Positions 22,160 through 52,118 of a DNA stretch of 64,000 nucleotides are shown here, piece by piece. The stretch comes from Acidobacteriaceae bacterium dw_441 (GTDB taxonomy: Bacteria > Acidobacteriota > Terriglobia > Terriglobales > Acidobacteriaceae): NCBI GenBank assembly GCA_018449715.1, contig JAAVVA010000006.1, positions 310,001-374,000 of the forward strand, written 5' to 3'. The notes beneath the pieces were generated by a model. It was given only the letters and a program-made list of their open reading frames with translations. It was not told the DNA's origin and made no database searches. Each line of letters opens with the position of its first letter. The first letter of the stretch is position 1. The position numbers and the translations under genes were made by a program.

Positions 22160-25100
22160 TTAGAAAGAAGCTCGCAGAGCGAACTGGATCTGTCGCTGCG
22201 CATTGGGGTTGATCAGGTTTGAGATCAGCCCCGCTCCAGAGACAATACCTGTCGCCGAAAGCACGGTTGCGTTCGGCTCTCCATAGTTCGGGTGGTTGAG
22301 GATGTTGAACATCTCCGTGCGGAACTGCAACGCCCCCGCATCTCCAAGCCAGCGCAGCTTCGTATCCTTCACGACGGAAAAGTCGAGGTTCACGTAATCC
22401 GGTCCACGCAGCGAGTTGCGGCCAACGTTGCCAAGATATCCCGCCGGAGCCAGCGTATACATGTGTGGATTGAAGTACTGCGTCGTTCCATGCTGAATGA
22501 CCTTCGAGCGATCAAAGATCACCGCGTTCGGGTCCAGTGCTTTCGCTGAAGTCAGGTTGGCCTCCGTCACATACGACGGACGCTCCGCGCCGATTCCATT
22601 GTTCACCCCAGAGCGCGAGTTGTTGAAGCTGACCTGCGGCGTGAACGGCAGGCCGCTCTGCGCGGTGAAGATCGACGAAACCCACCATCCACCCAGCAGC
22701 GTCTTCTGACGCGAAGGCGTGGGCAGGTGATAGATCGCATTCAGACGGAGGTTATGCGGCGTATCGAAGACCGAAGAGCTCCGGTCCCAGCGTGAGTTGT
22801 AAGGATTCGGAGACTGCAGAGGCGACGCAGCCGTCTCCGCGATCACAATCGCCTGACCATTGTCGATAAGACGCGACCACGTATACGAGGCCTGGAACTG
22901 CACCTTGTTACGGATATTCCCGGTCACCTGGGTCTGCAGCGCGTGGTAGCTCGACTCCGCCGTTGATTCTGACTGAAGAATCGAGGCGAAGTTCGGGTTG
23001 AGACGCGTTCCCCCCGGAGCCCAGTACGGAACGCCATCCGTAATCTGCGTGGCCTTGTTCGGGTTCACTTCGGAGTTTCGCATCAGGTGTACGCCACGTG
23101 TTCCGACATACGCAACCGTTAAGGTTGCAGATGCAGGAAGCTGCTGCTGTACCGACGCAGTCCAGCTATCGAGGTACGGCTGCTTCAGGCGGTACTGGAT
23201 CGGTTGCACCGAGGGGCGAACCACCGAATCCGGAGTCGGGAACGGAATGGTCGCCGTGCCAGCGGCGTTGGCCGCAAGCGATGTGACCGGCAGACCGAGC
23301 TTCCAGGTCGCGGCAGCCTGCCCCGTAAACGAAGGAGCAACGACCGAGCTAAACGGAGGCGTTGCGGTCGAGACATTGATGTAGGACTGCGGCAGCGGCG
23401 TCTGATCGTAGAGCTGCACAAAGCTGGCGCGCACAGCGGTCTTTCCATCTCCGCGCACATCCCACGCCAGTCCAACACGCGGGCTCAGGTTCCACAGGGA
23501 GACATTCTTGCGGATCATATTGCCCGCCTGAAACGAGGTCTGCGTGGGATCGACGAACGGAGATTCCAGCCACGACTGGCGTCCGCTCGTCTCATCCGGC
23601 CTCGACCACGGCTCATACCGCAGTCCCAGGTTGATCGTAAGGTTCTTGCGAATTTTCCAGTCGTCGCGCACGTAAAAGGCATACTCGTTCTGCGCGAAGG
23701 CGCGCGGATTGAGCGGGCCGGAAGCGCGGAAGGTGAACGAAGAGGGGTCGCCCGTAAAGAGCGAAACGAAGCTCGGGAAGGTGAAGATACCGCGCTGATT
23801 GACGGGCGAGGAGATGCTCGGCACATCGCGGTTGTACATCACACCGGCCTTGATCTCGTGGGCTCCATGCGTGTATAGCAGATCGTCGCGGAAGCTGTAG
23901 AAGAGCTTGCGCTGAAAGTTGTTCGAAACGCAGGCACCGTAGTTCGTGATGCCCGGAACCGTCAACGTACCCATGCCGAGTCCTACGTTGAGGATCGACG
24001 AACCACTGGGAACATCCGCCGAGCATGTGATGTTGATCGTGATGCCCGTGTACGAGAAACCTGCGGTATTCAATAGCGACGGGGAAAAGACGTGCGTCTC
24101 GGAAACTGTTCCGAGGTCGCCGCGGCTCTTTCCGTTCTGATAGAAGTAGGGCCAGCCATAGTTGGTCGAGGGCTGCGTCGCCTTGTCGATCGTGTAGCGG
24201 AAGAACGCGGAATCCTTCGACGAGAAGGTGTAATCGACACGCGCCTGTCCGTAATAGTCGTCCTGATGCTGCGGGAAAACATAGGTAAACTGCGATGGGT
24301 TGGTCGCCGAGTAGCTGACGAGCGAGGTCGACGGACGAAGATCGCTGAGCACCTTCGCGGTCACATCGTTCACCGTGATGCTGGGCGTCGATGCCGGAAG
24401 CTGGAGTTGCGGGCACTCCTGATTCGTCAGCTTTGTTCCTCCAGCAACGACGCATCCCGGTCCAATGGTGGTCTGGGTCGTGGGAACAGGCTGGGCAGCC
24501 TTGAGCGCTTCAAAGACCGCGTTGAAGAAGAACTTGTCCTTCAGGATCGGTCCTCCGACGGAGGCTCCGAACTGGTTGCGGCGGAACGCCTGCTTAGGCT
24601 GCGTCGGCTGCAGCAGGGTGTACTTGGCGTCCAGCGCGCTGTTGCGAAGATACTCGAAGACATCGCCGTGGAACTGGTTCGATCCACCGCGGCTGGCGAT
24701 CACCACCTGTGCGCCGAGAGATCCGCCGTACTCCGCAGGAACATACCCGTTGATGACACGAAATTCCTGAATGCCATCGACGCCAAGCGTCGCTCCGACG
24801 ACCGAAGCACCCGCCGCTCCGGAGAGGCTCGTCACCGAGGCCCCATCCAGCAGCTGCGCGTTCGAGCGGATAGGCGCGCCGTTCGAGCTGAACCAGCTTC
24901 CGACCGTGCCGCCGTTCGCCTGCCTGCTCGTGTTCAGCGTGATGCCGGGCTGTAGAAAGACCAGGTCAACATAGTTCCTTCCGTTCAGCGGAAGGCTCGC
25001 CACGCGCTGCGGCGAGACATATCCGCCAAGCGTCGGGCTTGACGTATCGACGTCCGAGGAGCTTGCCTCTACATTGACGTGCTCGGAGATCTCACCAATC

Positions 25101-25456
25101 TCAAGCGACGCATCCTCGACGGTCTGGTGCGCAACCGAGATCGCGACCCCAGGAATCGTAACCGTCTTGAATCCATCGTGCTCGATCCTCAGAGCATACG
25201 AGCCAACCGGCAGCTCGATGAAGCGATAGCGGCCCTCGCTATCGGTCGCCGCAGAGCGAGTGATGCCCGTCTGTTCGTTGACAAGGTTGACTCGCGTATC
25301 AGTCAACACATTGTCGGAAGCGTCGTGAACGACTCCTTCGAGAGAGCCGGTGTTCAACTGGGAGAACGCCCTCGGAGAGAGAGCGGAGAACGACAAAAGA
25401 AACAAAAGAAAAACTCCGGCCAATCGAACTGAGTTTTTCGTGTGTGTGAGTTTCAT
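22160..25456 (-). CDS. TonB-dependent receptor, Oar-like, with carboxypeptidase-regulatory domain
   Basis: A 1098-residue outer membrane protein of the type expanded in Acidobacteriota. A signal peptide (about residues 1-35, LAGVFLLFLLSFSALSPRAFS) is followed by a CarboxypepD_reg-like domain (LEGVVHDASDNVLTDTRVNLVNEQTG..., to about residue 110), then a plug (VASLPLNGRNYVDLVFLQPGI) and a large barrel ending in QIQFALRASF. A classical TonB box is not obvious. ATG at 25456 is chosen because AGGAAAG lies before it and the longer frame lacks a signal peptide. The gene follows the sulfonate-type ABC operon by 126 bases, so it may import sulfur-containing compounds for it. The substrate is inferred from position only. 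Confidence 0.93.
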   Translation of the reverse strand: MKLTHTKNSVRLAGVFLLFLLSFSALSPRAFSQLNTGSLEGVVHDASDNVLTDTRVNLVNEQTGITRSAATDSEGRYRFIELPVGSYALRIEHDGFKTVTIPGVAISVAHQTVEDASLEIGEISEHVNVEASSSDVDTSSPTLGGYVSPQRVASLPLNGRNYVDLVFLQPGITLNTSRQANGGTVGSWFSSNGAPIRSNAQLLDGASVTSLSGAAGASVVGATLGVDGIQEFRVINGYVPAEYGGSLGAQVVIASRGGSNQFHGDVFEYLRNSALDAKYTLLQPTQPKQAFRRNQFGASVGGPILKDKFFFNAVFEALKAAQPVPTTQTTIGPGCVVAGGTKLTNQECPQLQLPASTPSITVNDVTAKVLSDLRPSTSLVSYSATNPSQFTYVFPQHQDDYYGQARVDYTFSSKDSAFFRYTIDKATQPSTNYGWPYFYQNGKSRGDLGTVSETHVFSPSLLNTAGFSYTGITINITCSADVPSGSSILNVGLGMGTLTVPGITNYGACVSNNFQRKLFYSFRDDLLYTHGAHEIKAGVMYNRDVPSISSPVNQRGIFTFPSFVSLFTGDPSSFTFRASGPLNPRAFAQNEYAFYVRDDWKIRKNLTINLGLRYEPWSRPDETSGRQSWLESPFVDPTQTSFQAGNMIRKNVSLWNLSPRVGLAWDVRGDGKTAVRASFVQLYDQTPLPQSYINVSTATPPFSSVVAPSFTGQAAATWKLGLPVTSLAANAAGTATIPFPTPDSVVRPSVQPIQYRLKQPYLDSWTASVQQQLPASATLTVAYVGTRGVHLMRNSEVNPNKATQITDGVPYWAPGGTRLNPNFASILQSESTAESSYHALQTQVTGNIRNKVQFQASYTWSRLIDNGQAIVIAETAASPLQSPNPYNSRWDRSSSVFDTPHNLRLNAIYHLPTPSRQKTLLGGWWVSSIFTAQSGLPFTPQVSFNNSRSGVNNGIGAERPSYVTEANLTSAKALDPNAVIFDRSKVIQHGTTQYFNPHMYTLAPAGYLGNVGRNSLRGPDYVNLDFSVVKDTKLRWLGDAGALQFRTEMFNILNHPNYGEPNATVLSATGIVSGAGLISNLINPNAQRQIQFALRASF

Positions 25457-25581
25457 ACTTTCCTCGTGTTTAGATCGTGATAAGCCATGCGCATTACAGC
25501 CAGGCGCCACGGCGCGTTATTTCTATATGCGGGGGGAATTGCGCCGAAGAACTTAGTCCCGTCAGGCGCGAGAACGATGAA

Positions 25582-26391
25582 TCAACAACCAAAGGGCCGC
25601 GCAAGGGCAGCCGTGGAATCTTCAGTAGAAAGAACCTGCGCGGCCTCATCCGAGGTCTGCTCGTCTGTGATAAGACGGCTCAGGTGCCGGTGCATCTCAA
25701 AGATGGAAGCATCTTCTTCCGCGCGGGGACGAGGACGCTGATTGCGAACCCGCTCGCTGATCTGTGCGGGTTTTCCCTTCAGGACAAGAACCTCGTCCGA
25801 AAGAAATGCCGCTTCCAGCGTGTTGTGCGTAATCATCATGCCTGTGAAACGTCTCCGCAGCCAGATCTCCTGCAGCAGAAGACGCATACGGCGCGCACTC
25901 AACTCATCGAGCGCGCTAAAGGGCTCATCGAGCATCACGATGTTCGGACGAATCGCTAGCGCACGCGCAAGAGCGACACGCTGCCTCTGTCCACCCGAGA
26001 GCGTGAGAGGATACGCCCTGCGGTACTCCTCGAGATGAACATCGGACAATGCCGACAAGGCTTCCGAACGATCGACTCCCGCAGCGTCCGTGGCGATGTA
26101 AAGATTCTCTTCCACCGTCAGCCACTCCAGAAGACGCGGCTGCTGAAAGACCATTCCAACACGGGGCTTCTCCGAGGCCGAGCCAAAGCGAATGCTTCCG
26201 CTGTCCGGCCTCTCAAGCCCCACCGCAAGATGCAGCAGTGTCGTCTTGCCGATGCCCGACGGACCGATGATCGAAAGTAACTCGCCTTCCTCAATCGAGA
26301 ACGACAGATCCTGCAGCACCGTGCGGCGCGTGCGCTTATCCGTCGTCGCATACGACTTGCTGATATTGGAGAATTCGATCGCCGCGCTCAT
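25582..26391 (-). CDS. ABC transporter ATP-binding protein, nitrate/sulfonate/taurine type
   Basis: A 269-residue ATPase of the NitT/TauT family that powers periplasmic-binding-protein-dependent uptake. All motifs are present: Walker A GPSGIGKTTLL (about residue 40), Q-loop in GMVFQQPRLLEWLTVEENL, signature LSGGQRQRVALARAL, Walker B NIVMLDEPFSALDE and H-loop MMITHNTLEAAFLSD. ATG at 26391 overlaps the permease stop by 4 bases (ATGA), so the permease is translated just before it. It is the last ABC gene of the operon. SsuB- or TauB-like function fits the polycysteine leader upstream, but nitrate or thiamine-precursor transport cannot be excluded from sequence. Confidence 0.93.
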   Translation of the reverse strand: MSAAIEFSNISKSYATTDKRTRRTVLQDLSFSIEEGELLSIIGPSGIGKTTLLHLAVGLERPDSGSIRFGSASEKPRVGMVFQQPRLLEWLTVEENLYIATDAAGVDRSEALSALSDVHLEEYRRAYPLTLSGGQRQRVALARALAIRPNIVMLDEPFSALDELSARRMRLLLQEIWLRRRFTGMMITHNTLEAAFLSDEVLVLKGKPAQISERVRNQRPRPRAEEDASIFEMHRHLSRLITDEQTSDEAAQVLSTEDSTAALARPFGC

Positions 26392-27212
26392 GCCAGCTTC
26401 GTCCTCCTCCATCGCGTAAGGCGGTGCTCAATCGTCTGCAGAATGCCGTACTCGATCACCAGCATGACGATGCCGAAGAGGATCGTCCATGCCAGCACTC
26501 CAGCAACATTCTGCGTGCTGAACTCCGAGTTCAACTGGTAGCCGATTCCGCTGGACATACCGAAGATCTCAACCAGCACCATGATCTTCCACGCCAACGA
26601 AAAGCCCACGCGCACGCCACTCAACAGAAACGGTGTCGTTGCTGGAATCCAGAGGTAACGGATGCGCGCCCAGCGCCCCACGCGATAGACCTCCGCCATC
26701 TCGACCAGCGAGTTATCAATCGAACGAATTCCCTGCTCCACCTGCACCGTCAGGGCCGGAGCAACTCCAAGAGCAAGCGCCACCACGGGAGTCAACCAGC
26801 TGACTCCGAACCAGATGACGCACAACAGCGCCCACACAAGCCCCGGAATCGCAAGCCCCAGCACAATGCCAGGCTGCAGAAAAGCGGCCATCATACGATT
26901 GCGCGCAGAGAGCACTCCCAGCAGCAGAGACACGGCCGAAGCGAAGAAGAGCCCCGATACGATGCGCACCAAGGTGATCCAGATTTCGCGCCATCCGTCG
27001 CCGGTTCTCGCAAGCGCAAACACTTCCTCAAAGATCGGCCCCACCCGCGGAATCAGCGGCGAGTGCAATGCCCGCGCCATGATCTCCCATCCGCACAGCA
27101 GCAGCACGCAGAACGCGAGCGGCGGCAAAACGGTCTGCGACAGCCTCCTGATCGAAGACCAGGAAGAACCGGCGACCTTTCCCTGCGGAATGGATGTGAG
27201 CGTGGTGGCCAT
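26388..27212 (-). CDS. ABC transporter permease, nitrate/sulfonate/taurine type
   Basis: A 274-residue permease of the BPD_transp_1 type with about six membrane segments (for example LPPLAFCVLLLCGWEIMARAL, IVSGLFFASAVSLLLGVL, VLAWTILFGIVMLVIEYGIL). The EAA loop lies near NSLVEMAEVYRVGRWARIRYLWIPATTPFLLSGVR, which contacts the ATPase. It is 2 bases after the binding protein and overlaps the ATPase start. Homologues carry sulfonates, taurine, nitrate or aliphatic amidines. Direction of transport is import. Confidence 0.93.
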   Translation of the reverse strand: MATTLTSIPQGKVAGSSWSSIRRLSQTVLPPLAFCVLLLCGWEIMARALHSPLIPRVGPIFEEVFALARTGDGWREIWITLVRIVSGLFFASAVSLLLGVLSARNRMMAAFLQPGIVLGLAIPGLVWALLCVIWFGVSWLTPVVALALGVAPALTVQVEQGIRSIDNSLVEMAEVYRVGRWARIRYLWIPATTPFLLSGVRVGFSLAWKIMVLVEIFGMSSGIGYQLNSEFSTQNVAGVLAWTILFGIVMLVIEYGILQTIEHRLTRWRRTKLA

Positions 27213-27214
27213 CG

Positions 27215-28198
27215 TTATGCGTGTACCGCCCCCGAGGTGGACTTTTCATACACAGGACGCGAGGAGCGCTGAGTAAGAATCTTCGTCTTGACCGCCTCGT
27301 CGATCTGGCGGTCGATGTCGGCAAACACCGAGTTGTCCCACTCGGTCGCATAGATCTCAGGAAGTCGCTTGGCAAGAAGCTGAATCGCCTTCGTATCCGA
27401 GTCCGGAATCCCCATCGAAGCATGAAGCTCGCTCGCAAGCTGCGGCTTTGCCTTGATCTGCCGATTCACGGTCGCAAAGGCCTTCGCCAGAAGAGCAGCC
27501 GTGCTCTGATTGTTCTGAATCCACTGGCGCTTCGCGGCAAGACCACCGAGGAAGAGCTTCGATCCGCGGCCCCACATATCGCGCACCTTGGCAATCTCGC
27601 GTGCGCCATTGGCAATCAGTCGGCTGGCAATCGGCTCAATCGTAATGACGGCTTCCACGTCACCGCGTTCAAACAGAGCAAGATTCGCAGTGGGAGGCCC
27701 GAAGATGACACGAAGGTCCTTCATCAGGTCGATGCCCTGCAGGGATGCGGCCACACGCGCCTGGCGGAAGGTCTCCGAGGTCTGCGGCTGCGCAGCCACA
27801 CTCTTGCCGATCAGGTCGTGCGGCGTGCGATAGCTGCTGTTGCCCTTCACGATCCACGAGCCATGATTGAGCAGACCCGGAGCGAAGATCAGGATGTCGT
27901 TGCCGCGAAGCTGCGACTCGGCAGCGCCCAGCGGTCCAAAGAAGCCGACGTCGATGGCTCCCGAAAGAAGCTGCAGCTGAACCTGCCCCGGATCTCCGCC
28001 AGCCCACTGCGGATGAAGCCCGCCAAGAAGCTGCGAGTTCCTCTCCAGCAGAGGCTTCCACACGGCTCCGGCCGTTCCGGGATTTGCCGCCTCAATGCGA
28101 ATATCTCCCGCAGCGGCGAATGCGCGCGAGCCGAAAAGTTGCAGCGCTGCAAGGGAGAGCGTCTGCTGAAGCAATGTTCTGCGAGTTACAGATGTCAT
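27215..28198 (-). CDS. ABC transporter substrate-binding protein, SsuA/TauA type, Tat signal
   Basis: A 327-residue binding protein. The N-terminus SVTRRTLLQQTLSLAALQLFGSRAFA has the twin-arginine pattern and an AFA cleavage site, so it is probably exported folded by Tat. The mature part reads DIRIEAANPGTAGAVWKPLLER and shows PGQVQLQLLSGAIDVGFFGPLGAA, the NMT1/SsuA-like fold that closes on an anionic or aromatic ligand. ATG at 28198 is taken; an upstream GTG at 28213 is also in frame. It heads the transporter genes 103 bases behind the polycysteine ORF, whose product probably controls it. Sulfonate transport is likely from family and leader, not proven. Confidence 0.88.
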   Translation of the reverse strand: MTSVTRRTLLQQTLSLAALQLFGSRAFAAAGDIRIEAANPGTAGAVWKPLLERNSQLLGGLHPQWAGGDPGQVQLQLLSGAIDVGFFGPLGAAESQLRGNDILIFAPGLLNHGSWIVKGNSSYRTPHDLIGKSVAAQPQTSETFRQARVAASLQGIDLMKDLRVIFGPPTANLALFERGDVEAVITIEPIASRLIANGAREIAKVRDMWGRGSKLFLGGLAAKRQWIQNNQSTAALLAKAFATVNRQIKAKPQLASELHASMGIPDSDTKAIQLLAKRLPEIYATEWDNSVFADIDRQIDEAVKTKILTQRSSRPVYEKSTSGAVHA

Positions 28199-28300
28199 AA
28201 CGGAATACACCACTTGTACTGCCTGTACTGATGCTCAGAATGTCTGATGGGATTTTTTGATTTCTATCGACCGGAGGATGACCGGCGAAGAGCGGCCAGG

Positions 28301-28420
28301 TTAGCGAACCCGACACATGCCCTGCAGACAGAGCGTCTCGACAGGACAACAACAGCAGCAACAACAACAGGAACAGCTGGCGCTGTTTGCCGAATCGGTC
28401 TGTTGTTGAAGAGAGATCAT
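28301..28420 (-). CDS. Polycysteine leader peptide (39 aa) upstream of ABC transporter operon
   Basis: A short ORF too small for standard gene finders: ATG at 28420, 39 codons, TAA at 28301-28303. The peptide begins MISLQQQTDSANSAS, continues CSCCCCCCCC (eight consecutive Cys at residues 18-25, nine within ten positions) and ends PVETLCLQGMCRVR. AAGG lies 7 bases before ATG. A sigma70-type promoter (TCGACA, 18 bases, TAAAAT) precedes it by 40 bases, and the gene before it ends in its own terminator, so this ORF is the first cistron of the transporter transcript. Comparable polycysteine leader ORFs in mycobacteria stall ribosomes when cysteine is scarce and raise expression of downstream sulfur genes. 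Function here is inferred. Confidence 0.72.
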   Translation of the reverse strand: MISLQQQTDSANSASCSCCCCCCCCPVETLCLQGMCRVR

Positions 28421-28461
28421 CTTGCTGCCTTTACCAAGGAGGTAATTAACAAACTGCGAAT

Positions 28462-28491
28462 ATTTTAGCAGGAAACGACACACGTTGTCGA
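28462..28491 (-). promoter_or_regulatory. Sigma70-type promoter of the polycysteine leader and transporter operon
   Basis: On the minus strand TCGACA (28486-28491) and TAAAAT (28462-28467) are separated by 18 bases, five of six matches to each consensus element. Transcription would begin near 28455, leaving a 35-base leader with a good ribosome-binding site before the ATG at 28420. Confidence 0.65.
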
Positions 28492-28529
28492 TGATCGGCC
28501 ACGGCCGCCGCCATCGCTCAACCGCAAAA

Positions 28530-28554
28530 CAAAAGGGGAGGATTCCTCCTCCCC
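28530..28554 (-). terminator. Terminator after the FAD monooxygenase
   Basis: On the minus strand GGGGAGGA-GGAA-TCCTCCCC is followed by TTTTGTTTTG. It is 11 bases after the monooxygenase stop (28565), so the catabolic operon ends here and does not read into the transporter operon. Confidence 0.85.
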
Positions 28555-28564
28555 ATCCCACGTC

Positions 28565-29821
28565 TTATGCCGTAGCCTTCGCCGCCAGTTGCTCTTTCGA
28601 GAAGCCCGCGACCTTCTTGTATCCACTGCTGATGTCTTCCATCTCCTGCTGCGAGATGACATCGTAGATATTCTCGAAGCGCTTGCCGCCCGTGCGCTCG
28701 TAGACCTCGCGCAGAATCGCGTCCGGCGGATTCCGGCGGTTCATCAGTACCACTTTGGAAGTCGCTTCGACACGCACCTTGTCATACACCTGCAGCGCAG
28801 CCTCGCCCACGCCATGCTCCTTCAGCGAATCCGCAAGGAAACGCGCATCGAGGATGGCCTGTCCCGCGCCGTTCGAACCACGCGGGTACATAGGGTGCGC
28901 CGCATCGCCCAGCAGAGTCGCGCGCCCAAAGGTCCACGTCGGAACGGGGTCGCGGTCCACCATCGGGAAGATCAACGGGCGCTCCGTCTTCTGCAGCAGC
29001 GCCGGAACATCCAGCCAGTCGAACTTCCAGTCCTTGTACTTATCGAAGAAGTCCTCGAGCTTGGCTTCCTTGTTCCAGTCATACGAAGCGGGCCGCGGAC
29101 GCTCCTGCGTCGCCACCCAATTCATCAACTGGTTACCTTCCGCGTCGATGTTGTTGCGGATGGGATACGCCATCAGCTTGCCTACCGGCATCCATCCAAC
29201 GCGTATCGTGTTCGCCCCGCTGAGGAACGGCTTGAACGGAGTCACGCCGCGCCAGATGGTGTAACCGGAGTACACCGGCTCGCCCTCGTTCGGATAGAAC
29301 TGCCTGCGCAGAGCGGAGTGAATACCGTCGGCTCCCACCACAATGCTCGCGCGGCGGCTCGGCAGCTCCTCGCCCTCGGGCGAGACAAAACGCGCCACCA
29401 CGCTGTCCGATCCGATATCGACACCGACGCAGCGATGTCCCTTCACCACCGCATCCGGTCCAAGGCGCTCGGCGACCGCATCCAGCAGCACCGCCTGCAG
29501 GTCACCACGATGCAGCGAGAACTGCGGCCAGTCGTAGCCCGCATACATCCCGTTCAGCTCGGTGTAGATGTGCTGTCCATACTGGTTGAAGTACGAGGAG
29601 TCCTTCGTGCGGATGCCAACACGGTCGAGCGCAGGGATCAGGCCAAGCCGATCCAGCTCACGTGTGGCGTGAGGCAGCAGGTTGATGCCCGCTCCGACAG
29701 CCTGAATATTGCTCACACCCTCATAAAGCCTGCTCTCAATTCCAAGCTCGTGGAGACAAAGAGCAAGCACCAGACCACCAATTCCGGCGCCGACAATCAA
29801 CACATCTGTATCTTTGGACAT
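28565..29821 (-). CDS. FAD-dependent monooxygenase (PhzS / salicylate hydroxylase-like)
   Basis: A 418-residue flavoprotein hydroxylase that would insert one oxygen into an aromatic ring using NAD(P)H. The FAD motif GAGIGG lies near residue 12. The second motif is VVGADGIHSALRR (DG), and the third FAD contact is LLGDAAHPMYPRGSNGAGQAILDA. No transmembrane segment. ATG at 29821 (MSKDTDVLIVGAG) has AAGAGA before it; the longer frame starts before the nucleotide-binding fold and is not conserved-looking. It is the last gene of a cluster that also encodes a GlcG-like protein and an aldolase-family protein. The substrate is unknown; the PhzS-like branch often acts on heteroaromatic acids. Confidence 0.9.
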   Translation of the reverse strand: MSKDTDVLIVGAGIGGLVLALCLHELGIESRLYEGVSNIQAVGAGINLLPHATRELDRLGLIPALDRVGIRTKDSSYFNQYGQHIYTELNGMYAGYDWPQFSLHRGDLQAVLLDAVAERLGPDAVVKGHRCVGVDIGSDSVVARFVSPEGEELPSRRASIVVGADGIHSALRRQFYPNEGEPVYSGYTIWRGVTPFKPFLSGANTIRVGWMPVGKLMAYPIRNNIDAEGNQLMNWVATQERPRPASYDWNKEAKLEDFFDKYKDWKFDWLDVPALLQKTERPLIFPMVDRDPVPTWTFGRATLLGDAAHPMYPRGSNGAGQAILDARFLADSLKEHGVGEAALQVYDKVRVEATSKVVLMNRRNPPDAILREVYERTGGKRFENIYDVISQQEMEDISSGYKKVAGFSKEQLAAKATA

Positions 29822-29856
29822 TCTCTTGCAACCTTCATAGCAAAGCCGCACAACAG

Positions 29857-35669: not shown

Positions 35670-37166
35670 CTAGCTCGTTTCTTTTCGTTCCGGAACCTTT
35701 GCTCGCAAGAGATTTAACCGCTCCATCAGGTGAGCCTGAAGACCGGCATGCTCAACTTTTCCATACAAATTATTGTGTTCTCCGGGGTCGGCTTCAAGGT
35801 CGTAGAGCTCACCCTCTAATGGGTCGAGTACATATTGAATCAACTTATATCGTTCGGTACGAATTCCGCGATGCGGCGCTACCTTCTCAGGATTAGGCCA
35901 TTCGTAATATTCGTAATACCACTCTTTACGAAACTCTGGGTCCTTCTTCTTCGCCAAGGTCAGCACGCTCTTACCCTGCATGTGCGCAGGAATAGGAACA
36001 CCCGCGAGATCGAGAAGCGTGGGTGCAATATCCGTATCCAGAATCATCTCCTCACGTACTCCTCCGGACGAAATGCGTCGAGGGTAGCGGATTTGAAATG
36101 GAACGCGGATAGACGGCTCGTGCATTAATCGTTTGTCGAAAAGTCTCCACTCCCCGAGGAAGTATCCGTGATCAGACGTGTGCAGGATGGCTGTATCATC
36201 AAGGATTCCTTTCTTCTCAAGATGATTCATAACGCGGCCAATATTCTCGTCGACTGCGACAAGGCCTGCATAATAATCCTTCGCAACGCCTTCAAGAGAA
36301 CCGCAGGCTACGTGGGAGGAGGTTGTACCCAACTTGTTCTCAGCATCGATAAAGCTCTTGGGCTTTCCAGGATATCCCTTGAGGTCGTCATCGAAGCTTG
36401 AAGGCTTTGCGATAGGTACGCCGTTATAGAGGTCTGCATGGCGGCGTGGACGAAAGAACGGTTCATGCGGTGCAACAAACCAGAGCAGGAGGCAGAACGG
36501 CTTATCCCCACGATCTTCCTCGATCCACGAGATGGCTCGATCCGTAGCGAGGTCGTCTGGATAGGCCTTCTGATATTGCACCTGCGGGCCAACCTTGCCT
36601 TTGCGTCCCTCCTTGAAGAGAGGATTCTCGTAGTCATTACTGGGATTGTTATGGCCAAAGTAATAATCCCAATTGCGCTCTTCCACTCCATTTCGGGTAT
36701 GAACTTTGCCGACAATTGCCACTTCATAGCCCTCTTTCTGCAGGAGTTCGGTGAAGAGAGGAATATCTTCCGGAAGAGGAGTATGGCCCTTTGTATTGTC
36801 TAATGCACCGGTCGAACGCGAATACATTCCAGTGAGTGCGGTGGCACGTGCGGGAGCGCAAAGTGCATTGGTGCAAAAAGCATTTGTGAAACGAAGTCCT
36901 TCACGCCCGATGCGATCATGATTCGGGGTTTTCAGAATGGGATGCCCCGCAATGGAAAGAGCATCGGCCCGCTGACCTTCTCCAAAAAAGAAAACAAGGT
37001 TCGGGCGCTTTTGTTTCGTTTGGGCTGCTGCCACCTTCGGCGTTACGGATGCAACCGCAGCACTCCCTGCAATTGCGACAGACGTCTGCAGAAATTCACG
37101 CCTGGTCGTTACACCTGGCGTTGAGGTGTGAGACTTGTGGTGGCTCTGTTCGTTTATTTCTGACAT
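35670..37166 (-). CDS. Tat-exported sulfatase 1
   Basis: A 498-residue S1-type sulfatase that would remove sulfate from a glycan. TTRREFLQTSVAIAGSAAVAS is a twin-arginine signal peptide (about residues 20-45). The maturation motif C-x-P-x-R, whose cysteine becomes formylglycine, is C103-A-P-A-R107. The N-terminal metal-binding acidic pair, normally DD, reads FGEGQRADA, an unusual substitution. The central DTDIAPTLLDLAGV helix is in place. It lies 22 bases behind the second sulfatase, in the GH92 operon. No sulfatase-maturating enzyme is in the window. Confidence 0.92.
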   Translation of the reverse strand: MSEINEQSHHKSHTSTPGVTTRREFLQTSVAIAGSAAVASVTPKVAAAQTKQKRPNLVFFFGEGQRADALSIAGHPILKTPNHDRIGREGLRFTNAFCTNALCAPARATALTGMYSRSTGALDNTKGHTPLPEDIPLFTELLQKEGYEVAIVGKVHTRNGVEERNWDYYFGHNNPSNDYENPLFKEGRKGKVGPQVQYQKAYPDDLATDRAISWIEEDRGDKPFCLLLWFVAPHEPFFRPRRHADLYNGVPIAKPSSFDDDLKGYPGKPKSFIDAENKLGTTSSHVACGSLEGVAKDYYAGLVAVDENIGRVMNHLEKKGILDDTAILHTSDHGYFLGEWRLFDKRLMHEPSIRVPFQIRYPRRISSGGVREEMILDTDIAPTLLDLAGVPIPAHMQGKSVLTLAKKKDPEFRKEWYYEYYEWPNPEKVAPHRGIRTERYKLIQYVLDPLEGELYDLEADPGEHNNLYGKVEHAGLQAHLMERLNLLRAKVPERKETS

Positions 37167-51549: not shown

Positions 51550-52118
51550 GCTCGATCAGGATTGTCGGATGCTGTTAGCGCTAGCTGCAATTTTTTGATT
51601 GCCGCACTCACAGCATAAACAGCGTTCGACCTTGGGATATCGAGGCACGCAGCCATCTCCTCAAACGTGTATCCCTGACTACGGAGAAGAATACATTGCT
51701 GCTGGCACAAGCTCAATTGATGGAGTGCACGGGTTAGAACCGCATACTCCTGCTGTTCTTCGAGGTGCGCGAGCATGCTCTTACCTGGATCAGCAAGGCT
51801 CTCTTCCCATCCCTTCCAGCGTTCCACCGGAGCAAGCACTTCCCTCCGGCTTCGACGATACCGTGAGACGGCGAGGTTTCTCGCACAGGTCACAAGCCAG
51901 GAGAACAGGCCTTCGGAAGCGGGGGGTGCCGGATGTTCGTATGCATTCAAGAATGCTTGTTGCGTAACATCTTCAGCCTCCGTCACATTCACACCGGAGT
52001 GGAGCAGGAGCCGCAGAATATCGTACCGTCTGTTGGTATAGATCGACTCAAGATCCATTGCGGTGTTAAGTCGGCGTTTGCCGGGTTCCGCTGCGACGAA
52101 GGAAGGGGACGATGCCAT
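51546..52118 (-). CDS. ECF-family RNA polymerase sigma factor
   Basis: A 190-residue ECF sigma factor. Region 2 is YDILRLLLHSGVNVTEAEDVTQQAFLNAYEHPAPPASEGLFSWLVTCARNLAVSRYRR. Region 4 is LSLCQQQCILLRSQGYTFEEMAACLDIPRSNAVYAVSAAIKKLQ, an HTH with the expected aromatic and basic residues. It is cotranscribed with its anti-sigma and precedes a siderophore receptor, so iron-starvation control is plausible. No region 1.1 or 3 is present, as usual for ECF factors. Confidence 0.92.
   Translation of the reverse strand: MASSPSFVAAEPGKRRLNTAMDLESIYTNRRYDILRLLLHSGVNVTEAEDVTQQAFLNAYEHPAPPASEGLFSWLVTCARNLAVSRYRRSRREVLAPVERWKGWEESLADPGKSMLAHLEEQQEYAVLTRALHQLSLCQQQCILLRSQGYTFEEMAACLDIPRSNAVYAVSAAIKKLQLALTASDNPDRA

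Follow-up and report, generated by a model that had tools for sequence, protein, structure and literature searches.

Attenuators of the classical trp/his type pair a leader peptide rich in the regulated amino acid with competing antiterminator and terminator folds, and switch during transcription. For cysteine, the closest described systems are the polycysteine, leaderless short open reading frames (ORFs) of mycobacteria, reported as cysteine-responsive operon attenuators (Canestrari et al. 2020, as cited in PMC9094748 and PMC13236596) and, in the passage of PMC13236596 that treats them, termed translation attenuation of cysteine biosynthetic genes. Predicted Cys leader peptides were also described before the cys operons of Mycobacterium and P. 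acnes and before cbs of B. longum (PMC1262725), and uORFC-8-2, upstream of cysS in Rhodobacterales, joins a Cys-codon leader to an intrinsic terminator, for which ribosome-mediated attenuation was proposed (PMC8632094). Here we describe a polycysteine leader ORF in a stretch of 64,000 nucleotides (nt) from the Acidobacteriaceae bacterium dw_441 (assembly GCA_018449715.1, contig JAAVVA010000006.1, forward-strand positions 310,001 to 374,000), hereafter the window, numbered from its first letter. The ORF precedes an ATP-binding cassette (ABC) transporter operon and is probably, at about 0.83, a cysteine-codon attenuator leader, one of a set, apparently with two readouts, that is found across the family Acidobacteriaceae.

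The window ORF shares with the mycobacterial short ORFs a run of Cys codons; unlike those, which are leaderless according to the title of their report, it has a ribosome-binding site and a predicted 5′ untranslated region and belongs to another phylum. The leaders of PMC1262725, as that paper's relevant passages present them, likewise have Cys codon runs near the leader stop and lie upstream of cys genes. The portion of PMC8632094 on uORFC-8-2 describes two tandem Cys codons and one target, cysS, in alphaproteobacteria, whereas the acidobacterial set has up to eight Cys codons in a row and several sulfur genes as targets.

The initial annotation had reported a 39-codon ORF with eight successive Cys codons (nine in ten), a good ribosome-binding site, its own promoter and a terminator isolating it from the upstream gene. 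A direct count and inspection of the flanks bear out each of these, at the following positions:

28420..28301, minus strand: polycysteine leader ORF of 39 codons plus stop, MISLQQQTDSANSASCSCCCCCCCCPVETLCLQGMCRVR then stop
28346..28369, minus strand: run of eight Cys codons (TGT six times, TGC twice, by codon count), the proposed stall site
28432..28428, minus strand: Shine-Dalgarno sequence AAAGG, 7 nt 5′ of the leader ATG
28491..28462, minus strand: sigma-70-like promoter TCGACA-N18-TAAAAT, with TG preceding the −10, by consensus match alone
28554..28525, minus strand: intrinsic-terminator-like hairpin (28554..28535, GGGGAGGAGGAATCCTCCCC) and T-rich tail (TTTTGTTTTG), 3′ of the upstream FAD-monooxygenase gene

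Eleven of the 39 residues are Cys, encoded by nine TGT and two TGC codons. The promoter-like match is the sole one in the 1.6 kb scanned (27400..29000; mean of 0.3 in shuffled sequence), and its −10-like element ends 41 nt before the ATG, which together with the AAAGG site predicts that the leader is not leaderless. The hairpin and tail after the FAD-monooxygenase gene are predicted to insulate the leader from that gene. The distance from the leader stop to the start of the transporter's binding-protein gene, previously given as 103 bases, measures 102 nt to the likely ATG at 28198 or 87 nt to a GTG at 28213. The 4.9 Mb genome has six consecutive TGY triplets (Y, C or T) at 4 places, 3 of which overlap in this leader; at the fourth, a script found no short Cys ORF. 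The leader peptide has no match in NCBIfam, and no Rfam family reaches threshold for the leader; a sub-threshold match to RF02937 in the window (18 against 58.6 bits, E 0.11) overlaps the upstream terminator and was taken as chance.

In our proposal the ORF serves as leader gene to an attenuator that responds to cysteine and works through the ribosome. With charged Cys-tRNA plentiful, the ribosome would pass the Cys codons and reach the stop, leaving the mRNA in an OFF fold; with Cys-tRNA short, it would stall in the Cys run, an alternative fold would form and the uptake operon would be expressed. Across the set of such leaders the OFF fold seems to take two forms. In one, an intrinsic terminator competes with an antiterminator to which the leader's 3′ part contributes; in the other, a hairpin masks the ribosome-binding site. 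The window leader would then be one member of a family set that stands above all before cysD, and also before some cysK genes, two ssuA genes and a YeiH-like gene. Cysteine attenuators follow the same direction of control as other amino-acid attenuators. That direction, as PMC13236596 states in its account of a branched-chain leader, is low expression when the amino acid is plentiful and release when it is scarce. The earlier wording, attenuation when cysteine is scarce, has this reversed. That cysteine is the signal and that control runs in this direction are what we infer, as is the window readout, and cysteine sensing by the window leader would follow from its likeness to the wider leader set.

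One rival to attenuation holds that the run has no function, being either a TGY repeat that arose by chance or the shadow, in another frame, of a repeat coding for Gln, Leu or Ala. TGY runs of five occur in 147 of 150 family genomes and may be such Leu, Gln or Ala shadows; raw run counts were therefore rejected as evidence. One run with the look of a leader (L020) was discarded because it lies opposite the poly-Gln stretch of a protein-coding gene, and the window run is itself nearly a repeat. The initial annotation, too, had named a chance repeat as the alternative should orthologous loci lack a Cys-run ORF. Both acidobacterial orthologues found for the operon carry a Cys-rich one: in Granulicella sp. 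L60 (L036) the leader reads MPSRNSNTLAFRSANCPCCWCR then stop, and in genome G331 (L041) a leader, MNRIVNIPCSRFANDLGCCCR then stop, sits at the same place. They end in CPCCWCR-stop and CCCR-stop, respectively, and their flanks are unlike, with the Cys codons kept and the remainder diverged, as had been suggested for a functional run; the window run is longer than either. Gene order, including a downstream receptor named by eye in these two, is the same in L036 and G331 (L042) as in the window. In three more distant alphaproteobacterial homologues no Cys leader ORF was seen, their gene lying directly behind another gene. The window ORF, moreover, is intergenic and follows a promoter-like site.

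Further evidence comes from other sulfur genes of the family. A search of 60 family genomes for the pattern Cys-Cys/Trp-Cys-Arg-stop, with 50 loci then read, yielded short Cys-rich ORFs directly before cysK-like and cysD-like genes amid many chance matches, which led to a census by gene. The sulfate-activation gene cysD (TIGR02039) was detected in 39 genomes out of 199 searched in the phylum and in 119 out of 250 in the family. At 103 of the 126 listed family places (101 genomes, 28 genera) we looked for an ORF that starts with ATG or GTG, is no longer than 70 codons and has three or more Cys among five residues. The stretch searched is 320 nt long and stops 60 nt short of the conserved cysD GKD motif, so that the upstream region is covered. 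Such a leader was found at 74 of the 103 loci, in 22 of the 28 genera and at all 12 loci of the window's own genus, against 6/103 on the antisense strand, 2/102 further upstream (11/102 on its antisense strand), 0/43 within the cysD gene and, on average, 3.25/103 for Markov sequences. The window genome's own cysD has a leader, MSAFPQCACCCRTLPCPCTRCC then stop, 109 nt upstream. With this enrichment over controls (0/43 to 11/102) and with Cys leaders at both acidobacterial orthologues found, a chance repeat is extremely improbable, and the earlier claim of a cysteine-sensing leader in Acidobacteriota very probably stands.

Conservation points the same way. In 46 non-independent pairs of homologous leaders, Cys is kept at 240 of 291 positions and other residues at 496 of 712, which argues against a chance run as well. 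Apart from Cys the leader peptides vary widely, although Cys-Arg-stop endings recur and several peptides have spaced Cys besides runs. The peptide could instead be a working Cys-rich microprotein, or its thiols could sense a metal or redox state while the chain is being made, as in copper-responsive upstream ORFs; the signal would then be something other than Cys-tRNA. Its very high Cys density, the spaced Cys of several leaders and the recurring endings would suit that idea; the divergence of all other residues, the sulfur genes downstream in the censused loci, the lack of an NCBIfam match for the window peptide, and terminators with matched antiterminators that fit codon-stall attenuation make it improbable.

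Codon use also sets the leaders apart. Their Cys codons are TGT 325 times and TGC 117 times, compared with 18 TGT and 158 TGC in the cysD bodies, partial genes included (Fisher p 8e-50), and 4 TGT and 16 TGC in eight window genes. Rare control codons would sharpen the response; avoidance or shaping of leader RNA structure could also explain the bias. On another view the leader, insensitive to cysteine, would mainly boost or couple downstream translation through re-initiating ribosomes. Such re-initiation is widely proposed for leader genes, Acidobacteria included, and the spacing peaks at about 10–11 nt in the data presented in PMC4833913, compared with 87–102 nt in the window and 109 nt at its own cysD. 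Re-initiation would also leave the Cys codons, the TGT bias and the terminators unexplained, and we consider it very improbable.

Past the leader stop and ahead of cysD, 39 of the 74 loci have a hairpin with a U-rich tail and a folding energy of −12 kcal/mol or better, compared with 27 of 740 dinucleotide shuffles; in 38 of the 39 it begins 22 to 53 nt past the leader stop. These terminators set the family cysD leaders apart from the mycobacterial short ORFs, and, together with their matched antiterminators, from the Mycobacterium leaders, which have no conserved terminator in the account given in PMC1262725. The leader's 3′ part and the terminator's 5′ arm can form a duplex (at L120, leader GTGGGTGC with arm GCACCCAC). 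In 23 non-redundant loci the duplex of a leader with its own arm averages −16.83 kcal/mol, compared with −13.9 (standard deviation 0.56) for mismatched pairs, and in all 39 loci −16.02 compared with −14.06; none of 5000 permutations reached the observed value in either case. Taken as a set, and by sequence comparison, the cysD-type loci may work as trp/his-type attenuators do; at the window operon no terminator was found. An Rfam search of five leader loci gave no family at threshold except a tRNA in L104.

The remaining cysD loci suggest a second readout. A script could assign the cysD start at 55 of the 74 loci, 49 of them non-redundant, a set from which the window genome's own cysD is absent. 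In terminator-less loci the ribosome-binding site has an unpaired probability of 0.166 where 0.26 is expected (p 0.003, n = 23); in terminator-bearing loci the values are 0.373 and 0.347 (p 0.90, n = 26). The site tends to be hidden in the former and not in the latter, which suggests two readouts of one sensor. No anti-sequestor was found, so that the hidden-site readout rests on less. At L102, L107, L108 and L115 of the window's genus, the cysD ribosome-binding site can fall within a small hairpin, ACTCC-N4-GGAGT, whose loop varies in L115. Terminator and hidden-site forms within one genus offer a natural series for studying how an attenuator changes its readout. For the cysD loci, then, the sequence evidence supports the existence and placement of the leaders, their terminators, the matched pairing and the hidden sites.

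Leaders occur before other sulfur genes too. All 63 Cys-x-Cys-Cys-Cys codon places of the window genome were run through a script, which leaders lacking that motif would escape; they yielded the window leader (five overlapping places) and two clear intergenic leaders, before cysD and before a YeiH-like gene (PF03601). Two other places were set aside, a C-x-CCC ORF overlapping a longer open frame on the same strand (L302) and a Cys ORF opposite a 405-residue open frame (L173). The YeiH-like gene has the leader MGSIHIAACTCCPCCCMGTCCRCVGLSLC then stop upstream, followed by a terminator of −22 kcal/mol; a 231-residue part of its product scores 87.1 bits against TIGR00698 (YeiH putative sulfate exporter family), whose cut-off is 232.6. 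Between this attenuator and the gene lies a hydrophobic ORF of 38 residues, MATPHISKSRVNIDLIAVGIALTLAALIRFNILPPIGF (L323:1083-1199), with no Pfam match. Among the best 30 cysK loci of 100 family genomes, 7 have a leader (antisense 0/30, further upstream 2/29), and the pattern search gave an eighth, in G028; six of these eight were tested for terminators and two proved positive, at −20.5 and −21.5 kcal/mol. Among 30 of the best 31 ssuA-family loci of 200 family genomes, 2 have a leader (antisense 0/30); these leaders contain runs of four and six Cys, and their terminators are strong, at −16.1 and −18.9 kcal/mol. The leader targets found are the ABC transporter, cysD, cysK, ssuA and the YeiH-like gene; none is cysS, whose loci were not searched.

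A further set of results weighs against reading the window ORF as a cysteine attenuator. The first concerns its comparative basis. The binding protein (E 1e-20 or better) is found in 1 of 299 family genomes and 1 of 396 phylum genomes, each time in the window genome alone; in a collection that holds a single genome for each species, four loci turned up (Granulicella sp. L60, 56%; three Rhizobium/Shinella loci, 43 to 48%), and in the genus of L60 it occurs in 2 of 61 genomes, L60 and G331. With the transporter this rare, orthology of the window locus rests on three loci. Within the cysD census, 29 of 103 loci fail the leader definition, at least 6 of them having a homologous leader with just a CC pair. 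Outside the family 2 of 14 cysD loci pass (14 of 25 places tested): one (L100, MVAAAGCACCCCPSALLVPGPFRTFR then stop) looks real and the other (L098) looks like an artefact. The ssuA leader rate is no higher than in the further-upstream control (2/29; 1/29 on its antisense strand), so that a leader as a general ssuA feature finds no support.

The second concerns the switch. Single antiterminators mostly fall short of significance by themselves: set against Markov-shuffled leaders, they have a mean z of −1.13, with z < −1.64 in 11 of 39. At equilibrium, a ribosome placed at the first Cys cluster leaves a mean terminator probability of 0.79, compared with 0.94 at the stop, and stalling lowers it by more than 0.3 at 6 of 39 loci. 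We do not regard this shift as convincing proof of a switch; equilibrium folding keeps most terminators, so that a switch would have to be kinetic, during transcription. The antiterminator of the YeiH-like locus is reached by 62 of 500 shuffles. No terminator was found in the intergenic region of the window or of L036; the G331 orthologue has a terminator-like hairpin of −9.9 kcal/mol plus TTTTTGGA, with an unconvincing antiterminator that 225 of 500 shuffles reach. In the window, accessibility of the start site is nearly constant over simulated stall positions (0.40 to 0.45).

The readout of the window operon may accordingly involve Rho or translational coupling, or may have been lost. Loss would make the window leader alone a decayed relic, in which the repeat expanded, the G331-type hairpin is absent and the operon is no longer regulated; its lack of a terminator or a changing fold, the hairpin kept in G331 and a run longer than in both orthologues are what this predicts. 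The window nonetheless keeps a ribosome-binding site, a promoter-like site and the insulating terminator, and its Cys codons, like those of other leaders, are mostly TGT (9 of 11). Moreover, 35 of the 74 leader-bearing cysD loci also have no strong terminator, and where a start is assigned, their binding site tends to be sequestered. We judge decay unlikely.

A wider picture is tentative and somewhat doubtful: Cys-tRNA charging, read through polycysteine leaders, might be a main sulfur-control signal in the family, with one small, fast-evolving leader module set before genes that activate sulfate, make cysteine, take up sulfonates and putatively export sulfate, its readout switched between terminator and hidden site even within a genus and its sensitivity heightened by the rare TGT codon. 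Acidobacteria are abundant in soil, and to our knowledge little is known of their sulfur control. Among the matches listed in the open full-text literature, with subscription papers and preprints outside that scope, no Cys leader is reported for Acidobacteriota, and by the account in PMC2965389 almost no predicted acidobacterial attenuator had been given a function as of 2010. The predicted leaders would bring attenuation by Cys codons to a new phylum, where it has several sulfur targets and, it appears, two readouts. As a set that spans the family and for which a signal is proposed, they can be tested directly.

Downstream of the window leader lie the following genes:

27215..28198, minus strand: SsuA-like/NMT1-like ABC substrate-binding protein (alternative start GTG 28213; PF13379, 4.1e-07, above the gathering score)
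26388..27212, minus strand: ABC permease (BPD_transp_1; PF00528, 9e-22)
25582..26412, minus strand: ABC ATPase (PF00005, 1.2e-32)
22160..25510, minus strand: Oar-like TonB-dependent outer-membrane receptor (PF25183, PF13620, PF00593)

The receptor gene possibly belongs to the same operon as the transporter. The binding protein matches the SsuA family TIGR01728 at 4.1e-15 and 55.8 bits, below the cut-off of 163.5, and is for that reason SsuA-like and not a proven sulfonate protein; of the sulfonate-type transporter in the initial annotation, the SsuA likeness holds, and membership of the SsuA family is not borne out by this score. Around the leader-transporter-receptor block there are aromatic-catabolism-like genes (L036:2323-3750; L042:8737-10218 and 543-2234; window 28565-29851): the FAD monooxygenase gene adjoins the block in the window, a UbiD-like decarboxylase gene lies upstream in both orthologues (by Pfam in L036 only) and a tannase/feruloyl-esterase-like gene, named by eye, is present in L042. 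With such neighbours the imported compound may be an aromatic sulfonate.

Some loci show features of their own. On the opposite strand near the G331 operon (L042:10469-12798) are two Cys/Met metabolism pyridoxal-phosphate enzymes, one cystathionine gamma-synthase/lyase-like and one beta-lyase-like, both below cut-offs. At L076 (G047:C1:3359600-3363700, minus strand), a leader-like ORF, MADCACSCCCCR then stop, lies in frame directly after a MoaD/CysO-like frame and 92 nt before a MoeB/MoeZ-like gene (names by eye); it is a possible leader of a sulfur-carrier operon. Two short ORFs that may be chance are FRSCCCR-stop before an S-adenosylmethionine-hydrolase-like gene (L082) and VIFHHRISKCCCR then stop, a CCCR-stop ORF before an Oar-like receptor gene (L084), both targets named by eye. 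About 7 kb upstream of the window leader, on the same strand, is a sulfatase gene (35670-37166; PF00884, SGSH_C), before which the window ORF scan found no Cys-rich ORF with a Shine-Dalgarno sequence. That scan for Cys-rich ORFs with such a sequence also returned a 30-codon GTG ORF, VPRYPKVERCLCCECGNQKIAASANSIRQS then stop, at window position 51648 on the minus strand.
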